Origin: Novosphingobium sp. CECT 9465
GTDB taxonomy: Bacteria; Pseudomonadota; Alphaproteobacteria; Sphingomonadales; Sphingomonadaceae
NCBI RefSeq assembly: GCF_920987055.1
Contig: NZ_CAKLBX010000001.1
Span: 3,148,501 to 3,212,500 of the forward strand
DNA: 64,000 nucleotides
Direction of reading: 5' to 3'
The position numbers and the translations under genes were made by a program. Shown in pieces: positions 1-10,875 of this stretch (position 1 is its first letter; every line of letters starts with the position of its first letter). Under the pieces are notes generated by a model. The model saw only the letters and a list, made by a program, of their open reading frames with translations. It ran no database searches and was not told where the DNA came from.

Positions 1-355
1 ACACGAAAGTGAAGTCGTGGTGGCCGGACGCTGTGTCGAGTTCCTGAGCTATGATGGGAGAGCGTGTTCCCGACTTGAGATGGATGTGATCCACGACGGC
101 ACCGGCCTTGACGAACTCGGCAACCAAGCGACCGCCTTCGATGTCGTCACCCAACATCAGCAGAGGTACAACATTGCGATGGAGCATTGCCAGCGAGACA
201 AGAACGTTGCCGCAGGAGCCGCCGAGAGCCTCATCCGTCAGATCGCCGTCAGCGTAGATTCTGTCGAGCACGGTGAGCCCGGTCCCTGCGACGTCGAAGA
301 GGTATTGAAGGTGAGTCGATGTGCCCATGTTCTCGTTTAGTATTCCTTCAATCAT
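1..355 (-). CDS. PfkB-family sugar/nucleoside kinase, N-terminal part (cut by window edge)
   Basis: The minus-strand frame starting at ATG 355-353 is open through position 1 and gives 118 residues. It begins MIEGILNENMGTSTHL and contains the PfkB/ribokinase N-terminal signature: GGSCGNVLVSLAML followed by PLLMLGDDIEGGRLVAEF. This is the usual Gly-Gly...Asn...Gly-Asp-Asp-x-x-Gly pattern for the sugar-binding lid region. Its ATG overlaps the stop codon of the upstream SIS-HAD gene as ATGA, so it is translationally coupled and is the fifth gene of the operon. PfkB enzymes phosphorylate sugars, nucleosides or related alcohols. The substrate cannot be told because the C-terminal GAGD catalytic motif lies outside the window. 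Confidence 0.8.
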   Translation of the reverse strand, partial: MIEGILNENMGTSTHLQYLFDVAGTGLTVLDRIYADGDLTDEALGGSCGNVLVSLAMLHRNVVPLLMLGDDIEGGRLVAEFVKAGAVVDHIHLKSGTRSPIIAQELDTASGHHDFTFV

Positions 356-2292
356 TGCCTGTCGAGCTTCAGCGCGGACACATCCAAACGAATCTCGCCA
401 GACGATGATGCCACCAAAGCACTTAACGCTCTGAGAAGTGCCGTCGGTCCGGTTATCGTGCTGCCGAACAGGGACCAGCAACCGTTCGGCGCGCCGCATA
501 CCTCGCCGACGCTGATGCCGTAGGCGTGCGACAGGAGCGCGTGGTCGTTTCCCGAAGACGAGCCGCTGTCACCGAAGCAGAGTACTCCCTTTCCATCGCC
601 GGCGACGCTACGGATCGCCTCGACTACCGTCGTCTTTGTCGAAGACGACGGTATAATGTCGAAGCTGTGCCCGGACTCGGATATTCTGACTTCTCCGCTT
701 TCGATTTGGGGACAACGCGCAACATCGAGCGCGAACCGGAACGGGTAACGCAACCTATGCCTATCTATGCAGATCTGAACCGGGCGAGCCTTGAAGGTCT
801 TCACCAAGAACAACTCGTCCTGTTTGTTCAGCCAGGTTACGGTCGCGGCGATGGCGGGATTGGCGGCTGGCGGATCGAGGTCGATATCGACGTCTGCAGT
901 GCGGATGTGCCCGCCGTTATAGTATCCGATGATTATAGAGGGCAGGACGTCTGGGGGAAGAACCTTGCGCAGATCATCGCCAGCGGAACCGCCCCGTCCT
1001 GTCGCGATGCCGATCTTGACCCCTAAGCGATGCAGTCGAACAAGCTGGTCGATGATCGCCTGGTCGGGGACCTTGAAGCGATCTTCAGTCGAAACAATTG
1101 TCCCATCATAGTCGAACACGACGCCGCCCACGAGTGCCTGCTCCAGGTCTTGAAAGCGTGCGGAGCAAATCGTCAGAAGGCTCAGATTCTCCGGCGGGGC
1201 AGAGTCCGCCTTCGCTATGGCAGCACGCTTATGACGGACGCTGGCAGGAAGCTCATGAGCAAGCGTCTCTAGAGACCTGTCGTCGTAGATCGCCCTTCCG
1301 AACTCACCGATACCTGGTTTGCCGGGGTCGATGCTCAGGACGTCGCCAACCGCCTCGATGACTGCCAGTCCGTCGATGAGGCCGAGTATGTTCGCGAGCC
1401 TTCCGCAAGTGCCGTAGTCGATGCTCACGCGTCGCAGGCCTTCGGGAAGGGCCCCCTCGATCGCTCGCCATGTCGAGCGCGACGAGCTTCCGGTCAACGC
1501 AAGCAGAACCGTTTCGTCGGTTCGGTGGTGGAACCACGCATGCCGACCATGCGCGAGATTGCGAAGGTCGGTGGTCTGAACCGGACAGATCGATGCTTCC
1601 CAGAACGACGTGTCGAGTAGACAGGCGACAGGTCGAAGCAGAGTGTCACCTGCGATGACAAGGGTGTCCGACTTTCGAATGCCCTGCCATTTCTCCGTGA
1701 GGCGGATCCGCTCGCCGGGATTGCGCGAGGCGGCCAGCCGCGCCGAGATCACCTCCAGAGGCGATGGGCTGGCGACCGATTCGCGCGACACCATTGCGCT
1801 GGCCATCAGAAGACTAGCCGTCATCGAGAGCAGGGAGTGGGTGGCGAGATAGCCGTCCTTCTCGTCGGCAACTGGCACAACATGAACGTGTCCGCCGCAC
1901 TTCGATACCAGCGCGGCCGCAGCGCCCGCGGCGTTGCGAGTGACGATGTTTATGTCGCGGCATCCACGATCGATGGCAGCTTTGGCGGCGGCACTGACGT
2001 CAGGATTGTCGCCGCCCGCGCTGAACAGCCAGACCGGAGTCGATGCGAGAGCGAAGTGGTCGGTGACCACTTGCATCGGCGTCGCGACCGACGTTAGCCC
2101 AAACCCAAGCGAGTCCCGGCACCTGAGGAAGTATTCCGCAGCGACAACCGATCCGCCAGATCCGACCGCCAACGCGCCCCGAGCACCGCCGCGGGCCAGT
2201 GCCGTGGCAATGGAAGATGGGTCGAAGCCAGCTATCATATCGAGGGTGGCTGGCAGGGCGTCCAGCTTCGAGCTGAGCCTCGGCGTGCTCAT
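352..2292 (-). CDS. SIS-domain + HAD-phosphatase fusion protein
   Basis: 646 aa. Residues about 30-360 resemble a double SIS (sugar isomerase/phosphosugar-binding) module, with AVGSGGS at 42-48 and a second half containing TSFWEAS and an NLAHGRH segment, as in SIS proteins that bind phosphosugars. Residues about 385-640 are a Cof-type HAD phosphatase: motif I DYDGT (Asp394, Asp396), motif II ATGRGGS, motif III Lys near 553 in SSTKTTVV, and motif IV GDS...GND at 574-583. The catalytic residues look intact. The start overlaps the upstream stop as ATGA, and the stop overlaps the downstream kinase start. The likely role is binding or isomerising and dephosphorylating a sugar phosphate or nucleotide. 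I know of no characterised protein with this exact fusion. Confidence 0.8.
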   Translation of the reverse strand: MSTPRLSSKLDALPATLDMIAGFDPSSIATALARGGARGALAVGSGGSVVAAEYFLRCRDSLGFGLTSVATPMQVVTDHFALASTPVWLFSAGGDNPDVSAAAKAAIDRGCRDINIVTRNAAGAAAALVSKCGGHVHVVPVADEKDGYLATHSLLSMTASLLMASAMVSRESVASPSPLEVISARLAASRNPGERIRLTEKWQGIRKSDTLVIAGDTLLRPVACLLDTSFWEASICPVQTTDLRNLAHGRHAWFHHRTDETVLLALTGSSSRSTWRAIEGALPEGLRRVSIDYGTCGRLANILGLIDGLAVIEAVGDVLSIDPGKPGIGEFGRAIYDDRSLETLAHELPASVRHKRAAIAKADSAPPENLSLLTICSARFQDLEQALVGGVVFDYDGTIVSTEDRFKVPDQAIIDQLVRLHRLGVKIGIATGRGGSAGDDLRKVLPPDVLPSIIIGYYNGGHIRTADVDIDLDPPAANPAIAATVTWLNKQDELFLVKTFKARPVQICIDRHRLRYPFRFALDVARCPQIESGEVRISESGHSFDIIPSSSTKTTVVEAIRSVAGDGKGVLCFGDSGSSSGNDHALLSHAYGISVGEVCGAPNGCWSLFGSTITGPTALLRALSALVASSSGEIRLDVSALKLDRQ

Positions 2293-3377
2293 TCGGAGAG
2301 ATATCCTGCATAGAGCGGACCGGAGAGTACCAGGTGCACAAGCATGTCTGGAGGCCCTCCAATCGACGACTTTGTGGCGCTGAAGTCGTAGCTCTCCGTT
2401 TCAACGTATTGGACCGACATGCCGTGTTCGATCGCTGCCATCATGGCTCCAGCGGCGAGAACTTTGCTGCCCAGCGGCGAGAGGACCATCCGTGGTTCGT
2501 ATGTTCCGTCCATCGTCCGATCAAAGCGCTGCTTTAGGGTCGAGAGCGTCCTATAGCAGTCGAGTGGGTTCTTTTCTGACGCGTAGACGATGTCGCGTGG
2601 ATCGATCTCCCATTCGTTGACCAGTTCGTTCTGATACTCGGTGAGCAGGTCGTCGGCGCGGCGAGGGTTGCGCGCGGGGAAAGGAAGAACCGGGCAGATT
2701 TTATACCAGTTGCCGGGAGTAGCACCAATCTGCGTCAGCGTTGAGGCCCTGCCGCGCGCTAGCTGCGGGATCCAGATTTGCGCAGCATCCAGCGAGCTCA
2801 TTCCTACGTCGGGAGCGAAACCTTTGACCGGACTGATCCGGCTGGACGGCACGCTCGAAATCAAATCGTCAAGTTCAGGGTTGGAAACGATCATGAGGTG
2901 GAATGCGCGCGCTTCGTCGGCCTCGCATTCCTCCAGAAGCAGTTTGGCCGCCGGAAATCCGATACCGATCGAAAGGGCGCTTAGGTCGAGGATGACATCC
3001 GTAACGTCGGAGGCAATCGGATTTGCCAAGATCTCGGCGACCACCCGCGCGCCGCCGACAGGAGCGCCGTCGTCGGCGAAGACGTCGATCTTGAAGATTT
3101 TCGATTCCGGCACAATCGCTTTCAGAGCGGCCTCGTTACCCTCAGCCCGCTTCACTAGTTCATCGGTGGCGCCTGGCCTCTCCTCGCGGATGTAATAGGC
3201 TGTGAGGCGGTCTCCGAGTGCATCTGCCAGCATCTTGGAAACGCGTTGAGAGCGTGGGTCGAAACCGGCCGCCGCGACCAGCAGGACCTTCCGCTTTGGA
3301 TCGTTGAAGTAGTCGCCAACGAACGCGTCAACGTCTTGATCGAAGTTGGTGATGCAGTTCGACCAATGATTACGCAT
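2289..3377 (-). CDS. Conserved-looking protein of unknown function in the PRTase/ATPase operon
   Basis: 362 aa from ATG 3377. A TTG further upstream would add five residues, but the ATG gives a natural 8-nt overlap with the ATPase stop. I do not recognise the family. The pattern looks Rossmann-like: KVLLVAAAGFDPRS near the N terminus, then ILDLSALSIGIGFPAAKLLLE, a middle region rich in Pro, Asn and Arg, and a C-terminal SPLGSKVLAAGAMMAA segment. There is no signal peptide and no transmembrane segment. The ATGA overlap with the downstream SIS-HAD gene and the overlap with the upstream ATPase place it inside one translationally coupled set, so it is probably an enzyme or partner subunit of the same system. 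Confidence 0.7.
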   Translation of the reverse strand: MRNHWSNCITNFDQDVDAFVGDYFNDPKRKVLLVAAAGFDPRSQRVSKMLADALGDRLTAYYIREERPGATDELVKRAEGNEAALKAIVPESKIFKIDVFADDGAPVGGARVVAEILANPIASDVTDVILDLSALSIGIGFPAAKLLLEECEADEARAFHLMIVSNPELDDLISSVPSSRISPVKGFAPDVGMSSLDAAQIWIPQLARGRASTLTQIGATPGNWYKICPVLPFPARNPRRADDLLTEYQNELVNEWEIDPRDIVYASEKNPLDCYRTLSTLKQRFDRTMDGTYEPRMVLSPLGSKVLAAGAMMAAIEHGMSVQYVETESYDFSATKSSIGGPPDMLVHLVLSGPLYAGYLSE

Positions 3378-5289
3378 TCGCCAGGCCCGCAACTTCCCGC
3401 AGGTATCCTACCCGCTTCTCCAGGAATCCACCCCGGTTGTAGGTGAGCCCGTGAACTAGGCTGACCGTGCCCGTGAGTTCGATCAGCGCCCAGTGCTTGC
3501 CGCCTTGACCATAGTCGCGCTCGATCGTGATCGCGCCGTTGGCGATGGCATGCTTCAACACCGCACCGAGCTCGTCGTCGAGGGAGAGTTCCTGCAATTC
3601 CTCTTCGAGGATGCCGATCGCGTTCGCGCCGGCACCGAGGGGAGCGTTCGGCAACAGAGATTCGGACACGCAATCTCTAGCGATCTGGTCGACCATGCTG
3701 CGTACTCGGGCGGCATGGGGGAAGGCCCAGCCGTCCATGATCGCGCGCGCCTTGTCCGCAAGCACCTTCTGCTGGACCCTCGCCGGGAGCGGCAAATCCT
3801 CGTTGCGGATGGCCCGGGTCTCGATATTCGCCACTAGCGCGCCGGCGAACTGGAGGAATATTTCCGCATTCTCGTTGCTCGCGTCGCAGATGTCATCGAC
3901 CCCGAAATGGAATGGCCGTCCAAGCTCGTGATAGAGGTGGAGGCGAGCACCATGCGCTACATCAGAGTCAGCTTTCAGCGGCGTCTTCGGATCGGGATCA
4001 AAGTCCTCGAAGAGAGAAGGGGCGGAGCGCGCTATACGGACGGCATATCGGTGGATCAGGATCCGCACCATGGCGAGCGCAACTTCCGGTCCGTCGTCGT
4101 AAGACCGCGAGCGTTTGAGGTAATCGGCCACGATCGCGTCGATCTCCTTGCGTCTGGAATCCGCGACGCCGAGCTTCACCTGCTCCCGGGCGATCTTCTC
4201 GCTAAGCGAGCGGATTTGAGGGGCCGTGACGCTCGGCGGCTCTGATGGAAGCAGCCGCTCGATGTCGGTTGCCCCACGGTTCCGGAGCGCCTCGACCAGC
4301 GGCAGATAACGTTTTGCCATGTCCTTCGCCATCGTTCGGAACTGACGCCTGGCGGTGTCCTTCTTGCCGTCCTCCACCACTTGCATGCGGATGTCCACGA
4401 AGTCTCGCCCTTGAGCGCGCCCGTGCGAAGGTTGAGCGCCTGGCGATCGAAGCACCGCTCCCGGGCTGAGGGCGTCGAGCCGCATCATCATCCATCGCCC
4501 GAAACGCATTTCTCGGTGCGACAGCGTCTCGAACATCTCTTCGAGCTGATCGTGGTGCAGCGCGTGTACGTCGTCCAGCATCACCAGCGGCGTCACTTCG
4601 ATCAGATCTCCTTCCCATTCGATCCTGATCCGCTGAATGGCGTCGAACGGCGCGTATGGGGCGGTCGCCTCCTCGGGCAGGTCGCCGAGCTTGGGCGGTC
4701 GCAGGCCGGCGCCGATGGAGTAAATCGCGCGCTGAACGGCGAGCGCCCTATCCCGGACGCCTACGGCGGTGAGGCCGCCGATCTGCTCCAGATGCGCCTC
4801 GTATTCCGCTCGCGGCACGAAGGTGATCCCGTCGAGGCTGCGGGTTTTATTGGCTGTTAGGTTCCGAATGAGGCCAAGCATGGCTCGCGCCTGCACCAGC
4901 CAGAAGGCAAGCTTCGTCTTCACTGCGGGGTCGTAGGGAAGTTCCCAGAACTCGCGGTATTCAGATTCCATCGGAACCCTCACGGCGGCGACATGCGGGA
5001 TGGCGTTCTGGAGAAATCCGGCTTCGGCGAGCGCTGCGGCGAGGGTCCGGTTGGTGGCGTTGGTGCGGTCCTTCAAGATTGCCTCGACCATTTTGAACTC
5101 GGCGAGGGTCGCCAGCATCGTCTTTCCACTGCCCGGCGAGCCGATAATGCGCACCGGCACCTCGAACATGTCGTCCTTGTGCTTATTCTTCGCGAGAAAC
5201 GTGGTGAGCGGAGAAGGGCTGACGATCGACAGAAAGGAAGCGTCGTCGCGGACGTATTCTGTTGCACGACGGAGGAATGGGTTTGCCAT
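3370..5289 (-). CDS. P-loop ATPase (ORC/CDC6-like AAA) of the PRTase operon
   Basis: 639 aa. Walker A is GSPGSGKT at residues 50-57 and Walker B is LVMLDD at about 235-240, followed by VHALHHDQLEEMFETLSHRE, in which a downstream Arg/His region could act as sensor. The long spacing between Walker A and B and the helical insertion resemble the ORC/CDC6-type AAA ATPases that I recall being paired with PRTase genes in predicted conflict systems; I could not check that recollection. The C-terminal half is mostly helical, with a basic terminal region. The gene starts 4 nt after the PRTase stop and ends by overlapping the next start by 8 nt. The likely role is a nucleotide-driven sensor or switch; its target is unknown. 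Confidence 0.75.
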   Translation of the reverse strand: MANPFLRRATEYVRDDASFLSIVSPSPLTTFLAKNKHKDDMFEVPVRIIGSPGSGKTMLATLAEFKMVEAILKDRTNATNRTLAAALAEAGFLQNAIPHVAAVRVPMESEYREFWELPYDPAVKTKLAFWLVQARAMLGLIRNLTANKTRSLDGITFVPRAEYEAHLEQIGGLTAVGVRDRALAVQRAIYSIGAGLRPPKLGDLPEEATAPYAPFDAIQRIRIEWEGDLIEVTPLVMLDDVHALHHDQLEEMFETLSHREMRFGRWMMMRLDALSPGAVLRSPGAQPSHGRAQGRDFVDIRMQVVEDGKKDTARRQFRTMAKDMAKRYLPLVEALRNRGATDIERLLPSEPPSVTAPQIRSLSEKIAREQVKLGVADSRRKEIDAIVADYLKRSRSYDDGPEVALAMVRILIHRYAVRIARSAPSLFEDFDPDPKTPLKADSDVAHGARLHLYHELGRPFHFGVDDICDASNENAEIFLQFAGALVANIETRAIRNEDLPLPARVQQKVLADKARAIMDGWAFPHAARVRSMVDQIARDCVSESLLPNAPLGAGANAIGILEEELQELSLDDELGAVLKHAIANGAITIERDYGQGGKHWALIELTGTVSLVHGLTYNRGGFLEKRVGYLREVAGLANA

Positions 5290-5293
5290 ATGA

Positions 5294-6454
5294 TTACCCG
5301 TGACGGTCGCGACGGAGGAACAGCGGGCTCATCCGACGACCCAGCTTGCCCTCTGTTTCGGCCCATAAGATCGGGACCGAGTTGTTGGGCGTGTTGTGTT
5401 CGAGGATCAGCGGAAGCCCGCAGTTCGCGTATCCATACTTCATGTCGTCCTGGCCTGCTTCCTTGCAGTGCTTCTCAAGCCGCATGAACAGCTCGTGATC
5501 ATAGTAGGTGTCGCACAGACCTAGATAGGGCCCGTCTTCCGGTTTCGAAGGCGTCATCACGCCGATCGTCGACTCAATTGAGCCTAGTCGGAGGTCCGTC
5601 GGGAGGCGAAGTCCTTCGGTGATGAATGCGTCGCCATAGCTGCGGTCGGTCAGCTTCTCGGCCGCCTCTACGATGCGCTCCTCCAGCGCGTCTCGAGCCT
5701 GAGTTGTTGAAATGTAGTGGTGGATATGCAGCGTGTACCCCGTTGAAAGGGGGAATTTGTCTCCGAGATGCTCTCGCGCGTCTTTGACGATCTTCTCGAA
5801 CTTCGCGAGCTTCCCCTTTGGCGCTCCGCCGCCGGGAAACCGGATAAAGGTGGTGCCGGATGCCGTGAAGTCGTCGATTAGGTAGACGTCGTCGAAACGC
5901 GCCTGATCGTCCTTCATCTCCTCTTTGAGATCCTTGCCCAGCCCCTCCCACTTGTCGAGATCGACGTTCATCATCGGGACGACCTGTTCCTGCGACAACC
6001 GACCCGAGTTGGCGCGCCGCAGAACGTCGATGCGACTTCCGTCGCTGAGACCGACAAACAGGCAACGGCGAAGTCGATCAGAAAACGCTTTGCTACCCTC
6101 TGCAGTCGCCCACACCCCGTAGGGCTTGACGTCCAACGCGCTGGCTACCGCTTTGCGCAGGTATGGTGTTACGATCTCTGGGATGAAGTTCTCTATGACC
6201 CGCTGCATCTCCGCGGTAGAAATGTAGACGAGCCGCTGCCGCACCATCCCATAGGCGATCTCCCGGTCGGTCTGATCGAAGTGGCGTAACCACGAAACAA
6301 GGCTCTCCAAGAATCGTACGCCGGCTCGGAAGTCTGAATAACCATCATACTTCATTGAGGACATCAGGCGCAGCCAAGCATACTCACTTGTCGCTCGCTC
6401 ATTATCCCAACCCATCACGCTGGCGATTAAATTCAAGGCGAGTGTGTTTATCAT
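5294..6454 (-). CDS. Phosphoribosyltransferase-like protein, first gene of the operon
   Basis: 386 aa. Residues 190-203 read VYLIDDFTASGTTF, a good match to the PRPP-binding loop of type I phosphoribosyltransferases (hydrophobic strand, two acidic residues, then T-x-S/T-G-T). The N-terminal about 180 residues are helical and precede the PRTase core, unlike housekeeping purine or pyrimidine enzymes. The C terminus has a distinctive PLILEHNTPNNSVPILW segment, which I associate with PRTase-like proteins of predicted conflict operons (recollection, not checked). No other housekeeping salvage gene lies nearby. It is the promoter-proximal gene and precedes the ATPase gene by only 4 nt. The base or acceptor is unknown. 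Confidence 0.75.
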   Translation of the reverse strand: MINTLALNLIASVMGWDNERATSEYAWLRLMSSMKYDGYSDFRAGVRFLESLVSWLRHFDQTDREIAYGMVRQRLVYISTAEMQRVIENFIPEIVTPYLRKAVASALDVKPYGVWATAEGSKAFSDRLRRCLFVGLSDGSRIDVLRRANSGRLSQEQVVPMMNVDLDKWEGLGKDLKEEMKDDQARFDDVYLIDDFTASGTTFIRFPGGGAPKGKLAKFEKIVKDAREHLGDKFPLSTGYTLHIHHYISTTQARDALEERIVEAAEKLTDRSYGDAFITEGLRLPTDLRLGSIESTIGVMTPSKPEDGPYLGLCDTYYDHELFMRLEKHCKEAGQDDMKYGYANCGLPLILEHNTPNNSVPILWAETEGKLGRRMSPLFLRRDRHG

Positions 6455-6633: not shown

Positions 6634-7317
6634 TCAACTTTCCAGAAACCGCTTCTCATAGACGGTACCGATTCCGCTACCATCCCAAACATAGCACAGA
6701 TGCCGTTCCTGCCGACAATTCGACAACCGCCGGGGCCGGAACACAGCGGCACATTCTCCGCCGGGATTGCGGACGCTTTCATAGACAATCCCGTCCGACC
6801 CGGCATCGCGCAAGGTCCGCGCGGTTTCCTGAGACACGGCATAGCTGCTCGGATGGTACAGAGCTGGCAGCGCCTCCCGTTGCCCACGGATGTCGTGAAG
6901 GTTCGCGGCGAGATCGACGGCATAAACCCGCATGTCGAGTTCCTGCGCCGGTTCGTCGGTAGCCTCGAGGAAATGCGTGCGGTGATGCCTGGTTTCGGCA
7001 ATTGCGGTTGCCAGTGTCATTCCAGCATAGAAGACGCCGTAGCTGCCGTCGGTGAAGCGGTCGCCGACCGGATTGAGGTGGGTGAACGCCGCCATGATCG
7101 GCGAGGAACCGGGGCCTGAAACTCGGTCCTCAGGCGGCACGAGCGACAGCTCGCCTGCCTCGTCGCGCAGGCGGTCATTGGTCATCGCCTCGATGGCATA
7201 GACCGCTTCAAGATCGGCAGGATCGGCAACTGCCTCGAACAGCGAGATCGGCGGAAATCGGCTCGGGATGATGCGGTAGCAGGGTGTCCAGCGGACTTCA
7301 GACGTGGGAATGTCCAC
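6634..7317 (-). CDS. RES-domain toxin (NAD+-degrading type)
   Basis: 227 aa. It matches the RES family: WTPCYRIIPSRFPP near the N terminus (the Arg of the family name), then YGVFYAGMTLATAIAET, and a C-terminal SDGIVYESVRNPGGECAAVFRP block holding the conserved Tyr, Glu, Ser and Asn positions. Characterised RES toxins deplete cellular NAD+ and are neutralised by an Xre/ParS-type antitoxin encoded just upstream, as here (gap of 3 nt). The length is slightly above the usual RES size because of an N-terminal extension. Adjacent to the conflict-like operon it fits island maintenance or abortive-infection cargo. No inactivating change is evident. Confidence 0.88.
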   Translation of the reverse strand: MDIPTSEVRWTPCYRIIPSRFPPISLFEAVADPADLEAVYAIEAMTNDRLRDEAGELSLVPPEDRVSGPGSSPIMAAFTHLNPVGDRFTDGSYGVFYAGMTLATAIAETRHHRTHFLEATDEPAQELDMRVYAVDLAANLHDIRGQREALPALYHPSSYAVSQETARTLRDAGSDGIVYESVRNPGGECAAVFRPRRLSNCRQERHLCYVWDGSGIGTVYEKRFLES

Positions 7318-7320
7318 GGG

Positions 7321-7737
7321 TCAGCCGCGCTGCCCGTCAACATACTGACGCACGACATAGAGATCGGCGACATTGCCCGACATCATCCGGTCAAGCGCCG
7401 AGGCGCCGCCGAAAACCTGCGCCTTGTTGGGTTTGCGCACCCACTCATCCGCCGTCTTCGGCAACAAGATCTGCAGGCCTTTGTAGATGCCCATGACATA
7501 GGAAATCCGTTCCAGCGCATCCTTGGGCAGCGCCGCGACCACGCCGCGCTTCCAGGATTGGAAGGTCGAGCGGCTCTCCAGACCGAGCAAGCGCATCTGC
7601 TCCTGCTCTTTCAGGCCCCAGGCATCAGCGATGCGGAAAAATGTCCGCAGGGCCGGACCCGTCAGATCCTTGCGATCAAGTCCCTTTGCGGGCGCATTGG
7701 CTGCAGCTTGGATACCCATGTCGGCACGTCCTGTCAT
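7321..7737 (-). CDS. Xre/MbcA/ParS-type antitoxin of the RES toxin
   Basis: 138 aa. The N-terminal half holds an Xre-like helix-turn-helix (residues about 25-80, around RIADAWGLKEQEQMRLLGL and TFQSWKRG). The C-terminal half has the MbcA/ParS toxin-binding domain: YKGLQILLPKTADEWVRKPN, then FGGASALDRMMSG. This is the standard antitoxin partner of RES toxins and normally represses its own promoter. It lies directly upstream of the toxin with a 3-nt gap, forming a two-gene operon. Start ATG 7737 is the obvious Met; a pair of direct repeats upstream may be its operator. Confidence 0.88.
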   Translation of the reverse strand: MTGRADMGIQAAANAPAKGLDRKDLTGPALRTFFRIADAWGLKEQEQMRLLGLESRSTFQSWKRGVVAALPKDALERISYVMGIYKGLQILLPKTADEWVRKPNKAQVFGGASALDRMMSGNVADLYVVRQYVDGQRG

Positions 7738-8868: not shown

Positions 8869-9264
8869 CTACCGCCGGATGTTCCGGAGAGTTGTCACCT
8901 CTTCCGGATGGCGATCAAGAATCTCAATCAAGCCGACCGCAGCTTCGCTGGGCTGCATTGTACCACGCTCATACTTTTGGAACGCTCGCCGTCCGCCTCC
9001 AATGATCCTACCCGCCTCTTCTTGCGTGAGGCCAAGCTTCTTGCGCACGGCTTTGACCCGTGCGGCATAGGCCGCTCGCAACTCGAGATAGGCTTGATCT
9101 ATCGCTTGAAGTTCAGCGCCCGAATGGATGGAATCGCCATCGCCTTCAGGATACCAGCCCGGCACCTCCACTTCGAGTGACAACGAGCCAACGCTCAGCG
9201 TTTGTATCCGCGCGTCACGCCGAAGCACCTCACCGGTTTTGGGATGAATCCGAGTCTGACCCAT
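8869..9264 (-). CDS. MqsA/HigA-like antitoxin with C-terminal Xre HTH (orphan)
   Basis: 131 aa from ATG 9264, which has an AAGGAGG Shine-Dalgarno 7 nt upstream; a TTG 6 nt earlier is worse placed. The N-terminal part, MGQTRIHPKTGEVLRRDAR then a VEVPGWYPEGDGDSIHSGAE segment, and the C-terminal helix-turn-helix (VRKKLGLTQEEAGRIIGGG, then AFQKYERGTMQPSEA) match MqsA-family type II antitoxins, which bind DNA through this HTH. The cysteines of the zinc-binding N-terminal domain are absent. No MqsR-like toxin gene is found on either side, so it is an orphan or a repurposed regulator. Confidence 0.75.
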   Translation of the reverse strand: MGQTRIHPKTGEVLRRDARIQTLSVGSLSLEVEVPGWYPEGDGDSIHSGAELQAIDQAYLELRAAYAARVKAVRKKLGLTQEEAGRIIGGGRRAFQKYERGTMQPSEAAVGLIEILDRHPEEVTTLRNIRR

Positions 9265-9368
9265 CTTCAAACCTCCTTGCCCGATGTTGATCGAAGATCG
9301 TTCAGCATCTCACCTGCAAACCCCAGCGCGAAAAGTTCTCTCTGGCTTCCGACAATACACCTTCAAGG

Positions 9369-10649
9369 TTAATTTTCAACTGCCGCCGTTTGTCTGACCG
9401 GGCGCAACGATGCAGCGCCTTCAGCCAGCAGGCGGGCTATCTCGTCTGACGTTTTGCGCACCGCCAACTTCAGTGCTTCGTCGATATGAATATAGTCCTG
9501 CGTCACGTTCTGCGAAGCATGCCCAAGCATAGCCCGTATCGTCAGTTCCGTGAATCCGAGTTCGCCCGCGATGCTGCCGAAAGTGTGGCGAAGGGTATGA
9601 AGTGTTGCGCCCTCAATTCCCGCCCACTGGCAAACTCTCCGGAAACAGGCTGGTGCAGCCTGGTATGCGCCAGCGCCCGTCATTGACGGGAACACGTAGG
9701 GGTTACCAACGATCTCAGGTTGAGCGAGAACGACCTTCAGTGCTTCTGGGCCGATCGAGCGGACCTGAGCATCGGTTTTGGTATCCGGGAAGGAGACAAA
9801 CCCGCCCTCCGCATGCACCCAGGCGCGCTTCATCGACTGCGCCTCTTCCCGTCTGTATCCTGTCAGCGCAAGTGTCCGTACCACTGCAAGTGCTGTCGGA
9901 TTTTCGCCGTTACGCTCGCCATAGGCAATGGCTTTACCGAACGCGACGAGTTCCGCAGTGCTGAGTCGCCTCGTCTTCTTGTTGATTGCGAGTTTCTTGG
10001 CTCCTCTGGTTGGGTGCTCCGCAATCAGCCCCTTGTGCTTGGCATGACCCAAAATGGCTTGCAGCGACCCGAGGCATCGCGACGCGACGCCAGGTCCGCC
10101 AGCGGGCCGACCACCACGGCCTTTACCTCTAGCCTTGGCAGTTTTACCGTCCCGGACATCAGCTTGCATCTGCTCGACATCCGCGATTGTCAGCCTTTTC
10201 GCCATGCGATGGCCAAGAATCGGTTTGATGTGCGTGTTGATCCTGCTTTCATCCATCGCGAGCGAGGAGGCCTTGATTGGACGGTTCTTGCGGCCAAGAA
10301 TGTTACCGGCGCGGGCTTCAACCAGATACCAGTCACAGATCTCGGCGACGGTCATGCCACTGCGGGCCTGATGAATTGCCTCTGCTGGGTCCTGACCACC
10401 AGCAACTTCGCCAAGCTTGATCTTCGCCAGATCCCGAGCTTGCTCCGTCGTAATGACACCATAGCGGCCGAGATTGATGCGCCGCTTGATCCCTTCGATG
10501 TTGCGGTACTGAACAATGAAGGTCTTGAGCCCCGACGGAAGCGCCCGCAAGCCGAAACCCCGAATCTCGCTGTCCCACAGGACGGCCTGTTTATCTTTAG
10601 GCGGCGCGAATGCGTCCACATTGCGCTTGTTCAACTTCGCTGTCGGCAT
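9369..10649 (-). CDS. Tyrosine-type site-specific integrase
   Basis: 426 aa from ATG 10649, preceded by GGAGGG with 6-nt spacing; a longer frame upstream lacks this signal. The N terminus is the DUF4102-type arm-binding domain (AVLWDSEIRGFGLRALPSG), followed by a SAM-like core-binding domain and a catalytic domain with all expected residues: Arg in TGYRREEAQ, His-x-x-Arg in HTLRHTFGS, His in AMLGHAS and the nucleophile Tyr in DYIHID. It lies 182 bp inside the tRNA-Gly 3' fragment, with its start facing that border. This is the usual arrangement for an integrase that acts on its own attachment site. Confidence 0.92.
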   Translation of the reverse strand: MPTAKLNKRNVDAFAPPKDKQAVLWDSEIRGFGLRALPSGLKTFIVQYRNIEGIKRRINLGRYGVITTEQARDLAKIKLGEVAGGQDPAEAIHQARSGMTVAEICDWYLVEARAGNILGRKNRPIKASSLAMDESRINTHIKPILGHRMAKRLTIADVEQMQADVRDGKTAKARGKGRGGRPAGGPGVASRCLGSLQAILGHAKHKGLIAEHPTRGAKKLAINKKTRRLSTAELVAFGKAIAYGERNGENPTALAVVRTLALTGYRREEAQSMKRAWVHAEGGFVSFPDTKTDAQVRSIGPEALKVVLAQPEIVGNPYVFPSMTGAGAYQAAPACFRRVCQWAGIEGATLHTLRHTFGSIAGELGFTELTIRAMLGHASQNVTQDYIHIDEALKLAVRKTSDEIARLLAEGAASLRPVRQTAAVEN

Positions 10650-10830
10650 GTTTGACCCTCCATTTGGAGACAAAGATTTCAGAGGGGTGCTTTGTCTCCA
10701 TTTTGTCTCCAGATTTAAGCGTTTCGAGGGTATTATGGGCGGAGGCAATCGTAAAGGGGAACATCATAAATATCTGATTTAGCGTAGGTAATCGTACTTG
10801 GGAGGGTTTGGGAAAAGTGGCCGAAATATT

Positions 10831-10875
10831 TTGCCAAGGTTGGGGTCGAGGGTTCGAATCCCTTCGCCCGCTCCA
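10831..10875 (+). repeat. attR-like 3' half of tRNA-Gly(GCC)
   Basis: The 45 bp begin in the anticodon loop (TTGCCAA), continue through the 3' anticodon stem, variable loop and T-arm (GGTTCGAATCC), and end with the acceptor strand CGCCCGC, discriminator T and CCA. No 5' half precedes it: D-arm and 5' acceptor are missing. It is therefore a partial tRNA left by integration, i.e. the right attachment site of the island. Confidence 0.85.

Follow-up and report, generated by a model that had tools for sequence, protein, structure and literature searches.

NADAR-domain enzymes hydrolyse guanine-linked ADP-ribose and serve as antitoxins against DarT1 and against YarT, and riboflavin intermediates are cleaved by enzymes of the YbiA type, according to excerpts of two reports (PMC11543638, PMC11125620). 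Excerpts of two others (PMC9122126, PMC12548924) present phosphoribosyltransferases (PRTases) as the probable effectors, acting in an unknown way, of retrons and of a DprA-PRTase system, the latter protecting against T7 and lambda. Here we describe a locus of Novosphingobium sp. CECT 9465 in which genes of both kinds occur together. It lies at the left end of the stretch of DNA that was analysed, hereafter the window (64,000 nucleotides; contig NZ_CAKLBX010000001.1, positions 3,148,501 to 3,212,500), and consists of a five-gene operon running off the window's left edge and two further genes beyond that edge. We tentatively propose, from gene content and sequence comparison, that the five genes make up the core of a mobile conflict cassette, probably an abortive anti-phage one, in which a PRTase-CE protein would be the effector and a NADAR protein its antidote.

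The locus resembles DarT1-NADAR (DarTG1) and YarT-YbiA in having a transferase gene and a NADAR gene, whose product would reverse a ribosyl adduct. The transferase here, however, is a PRTase-CE of the type using phosphoribosyl pyrophosphate (PRPP), whereas theirs is an ADP-ribosyltransferase (ART) using nicotinamide adenine dinucleotide (NAD), and the cassette has genes for an ATPase, CARF, SIS-HAD and PfkB in addition. No ART was detected by Pfam in the operon, the partner of the NADAR being the PRTase. With type III-A retrons and the DprA-PRTase system the cassette shares a PRTase as putative effector gene, but the window operon has neither a reverse transcriptase nor DprA, and the excerpts on these systems report no NADAR for them. 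A retron was considered and rejected, as no reverse transcriptase was present among the proteins scanned beside the operon. The genes are as follows, with coordinates left of the window prefixed G000:C1.

5294..6454, minus strand: PRTase-CE family phosphoribosyltransferase, first gene of the operon, putative effector (PF24390, 76.4 bits)
3370..5289, minus strand: AAA+-type P-loop ATPase, putative sensor or gate (ORC/CDC6-like only below the Pfam cut-off)
2289..3377, minus strand: CARF6-family protein, putative ligand sensor, with no recognised effector domain (PADLOC CARF6)
352..2292, minus strand: double-SIS and HAD-IIB fusion (HAD by Pfam, SIS by fold)
1..355, minus strand: 5' part of the PfkB-family kinase gene, which runs on left of the window to G000:C1:3147881 (PF00294)
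G000:C1:3147420-3147902, plus strand: NADAR gene, left of the window, convergent with PfkB (PF08719, 92.8 bits)
G000:C1:3147022-3147408, minus strand: helix-turn-helix (HTH) gene, left of the window, divergent from NADAR

A first-pass annotation, made by a model from the letters of the window, had described the five minus-strand genes in this order with junctions of +4, -8, -4 and -4 nt, and all of them are present, taking the ATGs at 3377 and 355 as starts. The operon is real but forms part of a larger cassette, as the NADAR and HTH genes beside PfkB had been missed; the NADAR and PfkB genes converge with an overlap of 22 bp. The first product had been called a PRPP-loop protein, and its score exceeds the PF24390 (PRTase-CE) cut-off of 27, placing it in this family; its PRPP-binding loop, DD...SGTT(F), is kept across 18 aligned homologues, with changes only in two distant ones. 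The ATPase had been called ORC/CDC6-like: its P-loop motif GxPGxGKT and the DD of a Walker-B-like LVMLDD stretch are indeed conserved in 15 homologues, but PF24389 (ORC-CDC6-like) gives 18.9 bits against a cut-off of 27, so that by Pfam score the protein is only related to this family and not a member of it. The third protein, previously left as unrecognised, belongs to CARF6 (PADLOC PDLC01910, 377 bits, 1.7e-113), and its model adopts a CARF fold, the nearest structures being Can1, Can2, Csm6, Cam1 and Csa3. The SIS-HAD fusion and the PfkB kinase were rightly named: the HAD part matches Pfam Hydrolase_3 (33.6 bits), the SIS part has no Pfam match and was confirmed by fold, and the kinase matches PF00294 with 50.8 bits. 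The NADAR protein exceeds the PF08719 cut-off of 35.1 and thus belongs to the NADAR/YbiA family; its Glu36 and Lys43 are invariant in 15 homologues, with a spacing equal to that of E88 and K95 of a studied NADAR by our own residue mapping. A sequence search of the PDB returned no match for the PRTase, one chance-level row for the CARF protein, P-loop rows of low score for the ATPase and, for SIS-HAD, a single weak HAD match besides ribosomal-protein noise.

Dozens of loci contain these genes side by side, indicating that their grouping goes beyond chance. A scan of GTDB genomes with a CARF alignment yielded 34 loci, a tblastn search of plasmids was positive for 17 of 72,556 records, of which 15 were examined, and further loci came from searching genomes with CARF, ATPase and PRTase queries. 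Scoring with profiles of six families at a threshold of >100 bits gave 58 loci with the ATPase. Four were dropped: L036 for its frameshifts, L094 because it shares a contig with L007, L003 because it is identical with the window locus, and L105 because it is cut and holds two sets. This left 54 loci, 41 of which have at least 3 kb on each side of the outermost gene. These 41 include near-duplicates (four Bradyrhizobium loci and five similar rhizobial-type plasmid loci), so that fewer than 41 independent events are represented. PRTase, ATPase, CARF and SIS-HAD are each present in 41/41 loci, PfkB in 39/41, NADAR in 29/41 and HTH in at least 20/41, the last count being a lower bound because only the window protein served as query. 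Seven gene arrangements were distinguished: the window order with a convergent NADAR (24 loci), SIS-HAD first without NADAR (nine loci), and five less frequent ones. NADAR is the first gene of the operon in two loci, where PfkB was not found. The named hosts are mostly Alphaproteobacteria, together with Paraburkholderia, Terriglobus, Kouleothrix, a metagenome-assembled genome labelled Chlamydiae, and Paenarthrobacter.

Among the 35 loci with all six families, NADAR is the best conserved, with a mean pairwise identity of 0.74 versus 0.42 to 0.58 for the other five. Distance matrices correlate with that of the ATPase at r 0.96 and 0.97 for PRTase and CARF, at 0.82 for SIS-HAD and PfkB, and at 0.61 for NADAR; 0/2000 permutations reached the observed values, although shared descent alone could produce such correlations. 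A second PRTase-ATPase-CARF trio, without its own SIS-HAD in the stretch read, adjoins a full cassette in L107 (14999-19132), which suggests that this trio is the core of the cassette. An extra trio, likewise without its own SIS-HAD in the stretch read, adjoins another set in L105 (444-4640), and in the sequence record of the cassette at L036:6984-14472 each of the genes for PRTase, CARF and SIS-HAD is broken up into several reading frames. A scan of viral contigs with CARF found no relative, nor did any of 50,697 phage records match the ATPase.

PRTase-CE genes also occur with NADAR genes in a much smaller setting. PRTase-CE proteins above the Pfam cut-off were found in 13/385 and 18/398 genomes, giving 30 distinct genomes, 28 of which were read with their flanks (a few stretches being shortened by a contig end). 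Six of these carry the cassette, four of them with NADAR, and another four carry a compact pair, PRTase-CE followed by NADAR. NADAR is also the next gene in three of three compact-clade plasmid records (Methylobacterium, Vibrio and Klebsiella), and in a viral-contig scan it lies directly downstream on the same strand in 33/33 loci, or 15/15 clusters at 70% identity. Altogether, NADAR directly adjoins the PRTase-CE gene in 40/40 compact loci (33 from viral contigs, three from plasmids and four from genomes: L169-L201 for the viral contigs, then L079, L080, L141, L142 and L154-L156), all of which share descent. As background NADAR is rare, occurring in 12/190 genomes of the class. Judging from its composition, the compact module looks like a toxin-antitoxin or defence pair. 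PRTases of both the cassette and the pair include members above the PF24390 cut-off.

Some compact pairs were observed inside restriction loci. The L079 pair lies between HsdM/GmrSD and HsdR, the L141 pair has a NOV_C helicase on one side and DUF1156/DUF499 genes on the other, and at L079:8834-11152, L169:4918-7152, L171:3095-5179 and L177:4801-7200 the NADAR frame runs into a type I HsdS specificity domain. No PRTase-NADAR fusion was present among the best 120 of 1858 matches, the compact pair was not found in 50,697 phage records, and an order-wide search of 48 genomes recovered it only in the two genomes already known. Supposed E. coli copies of the pair were rejected, since only the NADAR part was matched (62/5426 genomes).

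A further arrangement, at L144:5831-10530, comprises a PRTase, a strong ORC-CDC6-like ATPase (424 bits), a CARF6 protein and an N6-methylase in a row and is, by its predicted products, a simpler relative of the cassette. Both share the core order PRTase, ATPase, CARF; the cassette differs in having SIS-HAD, PfkB, NADAR and HTH in place of the N6 methylase, and in an ATPase that stays below the Pfam cut-off and could not be aligned with that of L144 by hhalign (probability 4%). For the two CARF proteins, hhalign gave a probability of 49% (E 1.7e-4).

The gene set, its conservation, its mobility, the defence surroundings of the window island and the intact motifs are directly established. As for function, joining the known NADAR activity with the reports of PRTase effectors, the most economical interpretation is a ribosyl adduct formed by PRTase-CE and removed by NADAR. 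The ATPase and the CARF protein would form the sensing and gating part, restraining the PRTase until infection. Once released, PRTase-CE, the effector, would use PRPP to place a phosphoribosyl group onto a base, be it of DNA, of RNA or of a free nucleotide. What NADAR relatives do, and the pairing with PRTase, argue for NADAR as the antidote, a putative N-glycosidase that would take this group off again. More speculatively, the double-SIS/HAD protein and PfkB could handle released or rearranged (Amadori-like) sugar phosphates, including adducts that escape NADAR. FrlD and FrlB process fructosamines in a comparable way; in contrast to this deglycation pair, SIS is fused to HAD in the cassette. 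The HTH protein would regulate the NADAR side.

Several observations weigh against this scheme. No NADAR gene is present in the stretch read of 12/41 cassettes, not a single NADAR match was obtained in the cassette genome G839, and 18/28 PRTase-CE genomes have none nearby; retron-type reverse transcriptases account for two scanned neighbours in these 18 genomes. The PRTases of cassette and pair aligned by hhalign over a C-terminal NTPNN/NCPNN stretch alone, with a probability of 6%. Six cassette NADARs share 25-30% identity with the NADAR of the L080 pair, and the two groups differ at two near-active-site positions (QAGK and WGE versus QACR and WGA); they may not have a common substrate, and this divergence suggests that the PRTase-NADAR partnership may have arisen more than once. 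We know of no activity for PRTase-CE, and co-occurrence of genes does not establish a mechanism. Moreover, an excerpt of PMC11125620 states that E. coli K-12 YbiA acts in vitro on ADP-ribosyl-guanosine but does not serve as an antitoxin against either DarT1 or YarT.

The first-pass annotation had also placed the operon in an integrase-bearing island, and this is borne out by the following features.

9369..10748, minus strand: tyrosine integrase, right end of the cassette island (Phage_integrase 42.4 bits, Arm-DNA-bind_3 58.3 bits)
10831..10875, plus strand: 45-bp direct repeat of the tRNA-Gly(gcc) 3' end, right attachment site (exact copy; left copy G000:C1:3092920-3092964)

The far (left) end of the island is a tRNA-Gly(gcc) at G000:C1:3092890-3092964, whose last 45 bp are those repeated beside the integrase. 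The island thus bounded measures about 66.4 kb (G000:C1:3092920-3159375) and ends on the right at window position 10875. It carries the Thoeris genes ThsA (514 bits) and ThsB, the AbiE genes AbiEi and AbiEii, helicase and methylase genes of Hma/DISARM/BREX-like type and a PDC-S06-like ATPase, so that the window copy sits in a defence-rich mobile island, while other loci have mixed neighbours. A strawberry-notch-type helicase was observed in the same island, as were a RES/Xre-type toxin-antitoxin pair (window 6634-7737) and an MqsA-family HTH protein (window 8869-9270). The RES toxin noted earlier as a neighbour does adjoin the operon here, but this is local: a blastp survey of L002-L036 matched it only in L002 and its twin L003, and RES-Xre was rejected as a system component.

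Around 27 other loci, 102 flanking open reading frames were surveyed, with counts taken without a random-region baseline. Pfam matched five type IV coupling proteins, three Relaxase, one TrwC, three integrases and two resolvases, and the best 25 of 149 PADLOC rows included one member each of DISARM, type I and type IIG restriction, and Hma. Metabolic genes were present in the flanks as well. Among the plasmid cassettes, that of L102 lies between conjugation genes, those of L099, L100, L108 and L109 lie near Tn7- or Mu-like transposition genes, and neighbours include Shedu (L108), a caspase gene (L099) and HipA (L110), those of L106 being mainly metabolic. Nucleoside 2-deoxyribosyltransferase genes are annotated near two plasmid cassettes (L103:1248-2123 and L100:14947-15507). 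The co-occurrence that the first-pass annotation had expected, in variable islands near defence genes, is therefore seen: the genes travel together in several phyla, in mobile or variable settings and, in several cases, near defence genes. Of the two outcomes named as refuting it, conserved housekeeping loci and no co-occurrence elsewhere, neither was found.

The main rival explanation, possible although we consider it unlikely, is a signal pathway in which infection leads PRTase, PfkB and SIS-HAD to build an unusual nucleotide or nucleoside messenger, which would be bound by the CARF protein and broken down by NADAR as an off switch, as in a Ter- or Thoeris-like system. CARF proteins bind nucleotide messengers, and the third protein's model is nearest to CARF structures. 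The search with the TIGR02578 (Csm1-type) model, the only Cas10 model used, gave no score above cut-off in the nine system genomes and one weak match of 19.3 bits; a Cas10 system or type III CRISPR accessory was rejected on this basis, and a messenger would need another source. In Thoeris, a signal likewise acts through a Rossmann-type sensor. The biosynthetic module of Ter offers a parallel, as PRTase and HAD enzymes are proposed there to make a nucleotide signal (excerpt of PMC7824862), and NADARs have been proposed to degrade soluble ADP-ribose derivatives (excerpt of PMC9503650). Unlike these systems, the cassette itself has no TerB/TerD, TIR or SIR2 gene, the Thoeris of the island being a separate neighbour, and no nuclease, membrane or protease effector was recognised in it. 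The compact pair, moreover, lacks CARF, SIS-HAD and PfkB genes, so that the pairing of PRTase with NADAR does not depend on a CARF receptor.

The PRTase could instead use up the PRPP or nucleobase pool and starve the phage, with the sugar enzymes and NADAR recycling at recovery. The kept PRPP-binding loop and the presence of kinase, phosphatase and isomerase-type enzymes suit such depletion, but a NADAR directly downstream in 40/40 compact pairs fits a specific reversal at least equally, and we regard depletion as improbable. More remote still is ordinary metabolic cargo: an operon for nucleoside or amino-sugar salvage, or for damage repair, riding on mobile elements. Every enzyme fold of the cassette does have housekeeping relatives, and part of the flanking genes are metabolic; against this stand the sporadic distribution, with the CARF gene in only 5/298 genomes of the family, the mobile settings, and the fact that the PRTase family elsewhere neighbours retron reverse transcriptases, HsdR and, in the pair, NADAR. 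A fixed housekeeping or salvage locus was discarded as unlikely on the same distribution and settings.

Which parts of the cassette are new is uncertain. The PRTase-CE, ORC-CDC6-like and CARF6 families have been named by curators, and the trio may therefore have been noticed earlier. The open-licence literature, as far as its accessible parts go, yielded no description of the cassette or of the PRTase-NADAR pairing. An excerpt of the DefensePredictor report (PMC13092281) mentions validated systems with NADAR domains, and a figure legend lists PRTase, so that an overlap of the compact pair with those systems is possible.

If the effector-antidote reading holds, PRTase-CE might represent a second large class of base-modifying toxins, phosphoribosylating from PRPP much as DarT uses NAD+, with NADARs recruited repeatedly as antidotes; the window cassette would then be an elaborate version, triggered through ATPase and CARF and equipped with enzymes of its own for processing the adducts (PfkB, double-SIS and HAD). 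We consider this wider generalisation doubtful, if conceivable. An excerpt of PMC9122126 describes PRTases as probable effectors of defence that act in an unknown way, and the chemistry of NADARs is known; together with the tight PRTase-NADAR pairing, this makes the question direct: does NADAR undo what PRTase-CE does? The cassette also provides a CARF6 protein with a defined set of partners in genomes without a Csm1-type Cas10 above cut-off. Finally, the pairing of an enzyme that would attach ribose phosphate with one that would remove ribose hints at an unexplored chemistry in bacterial immunity.

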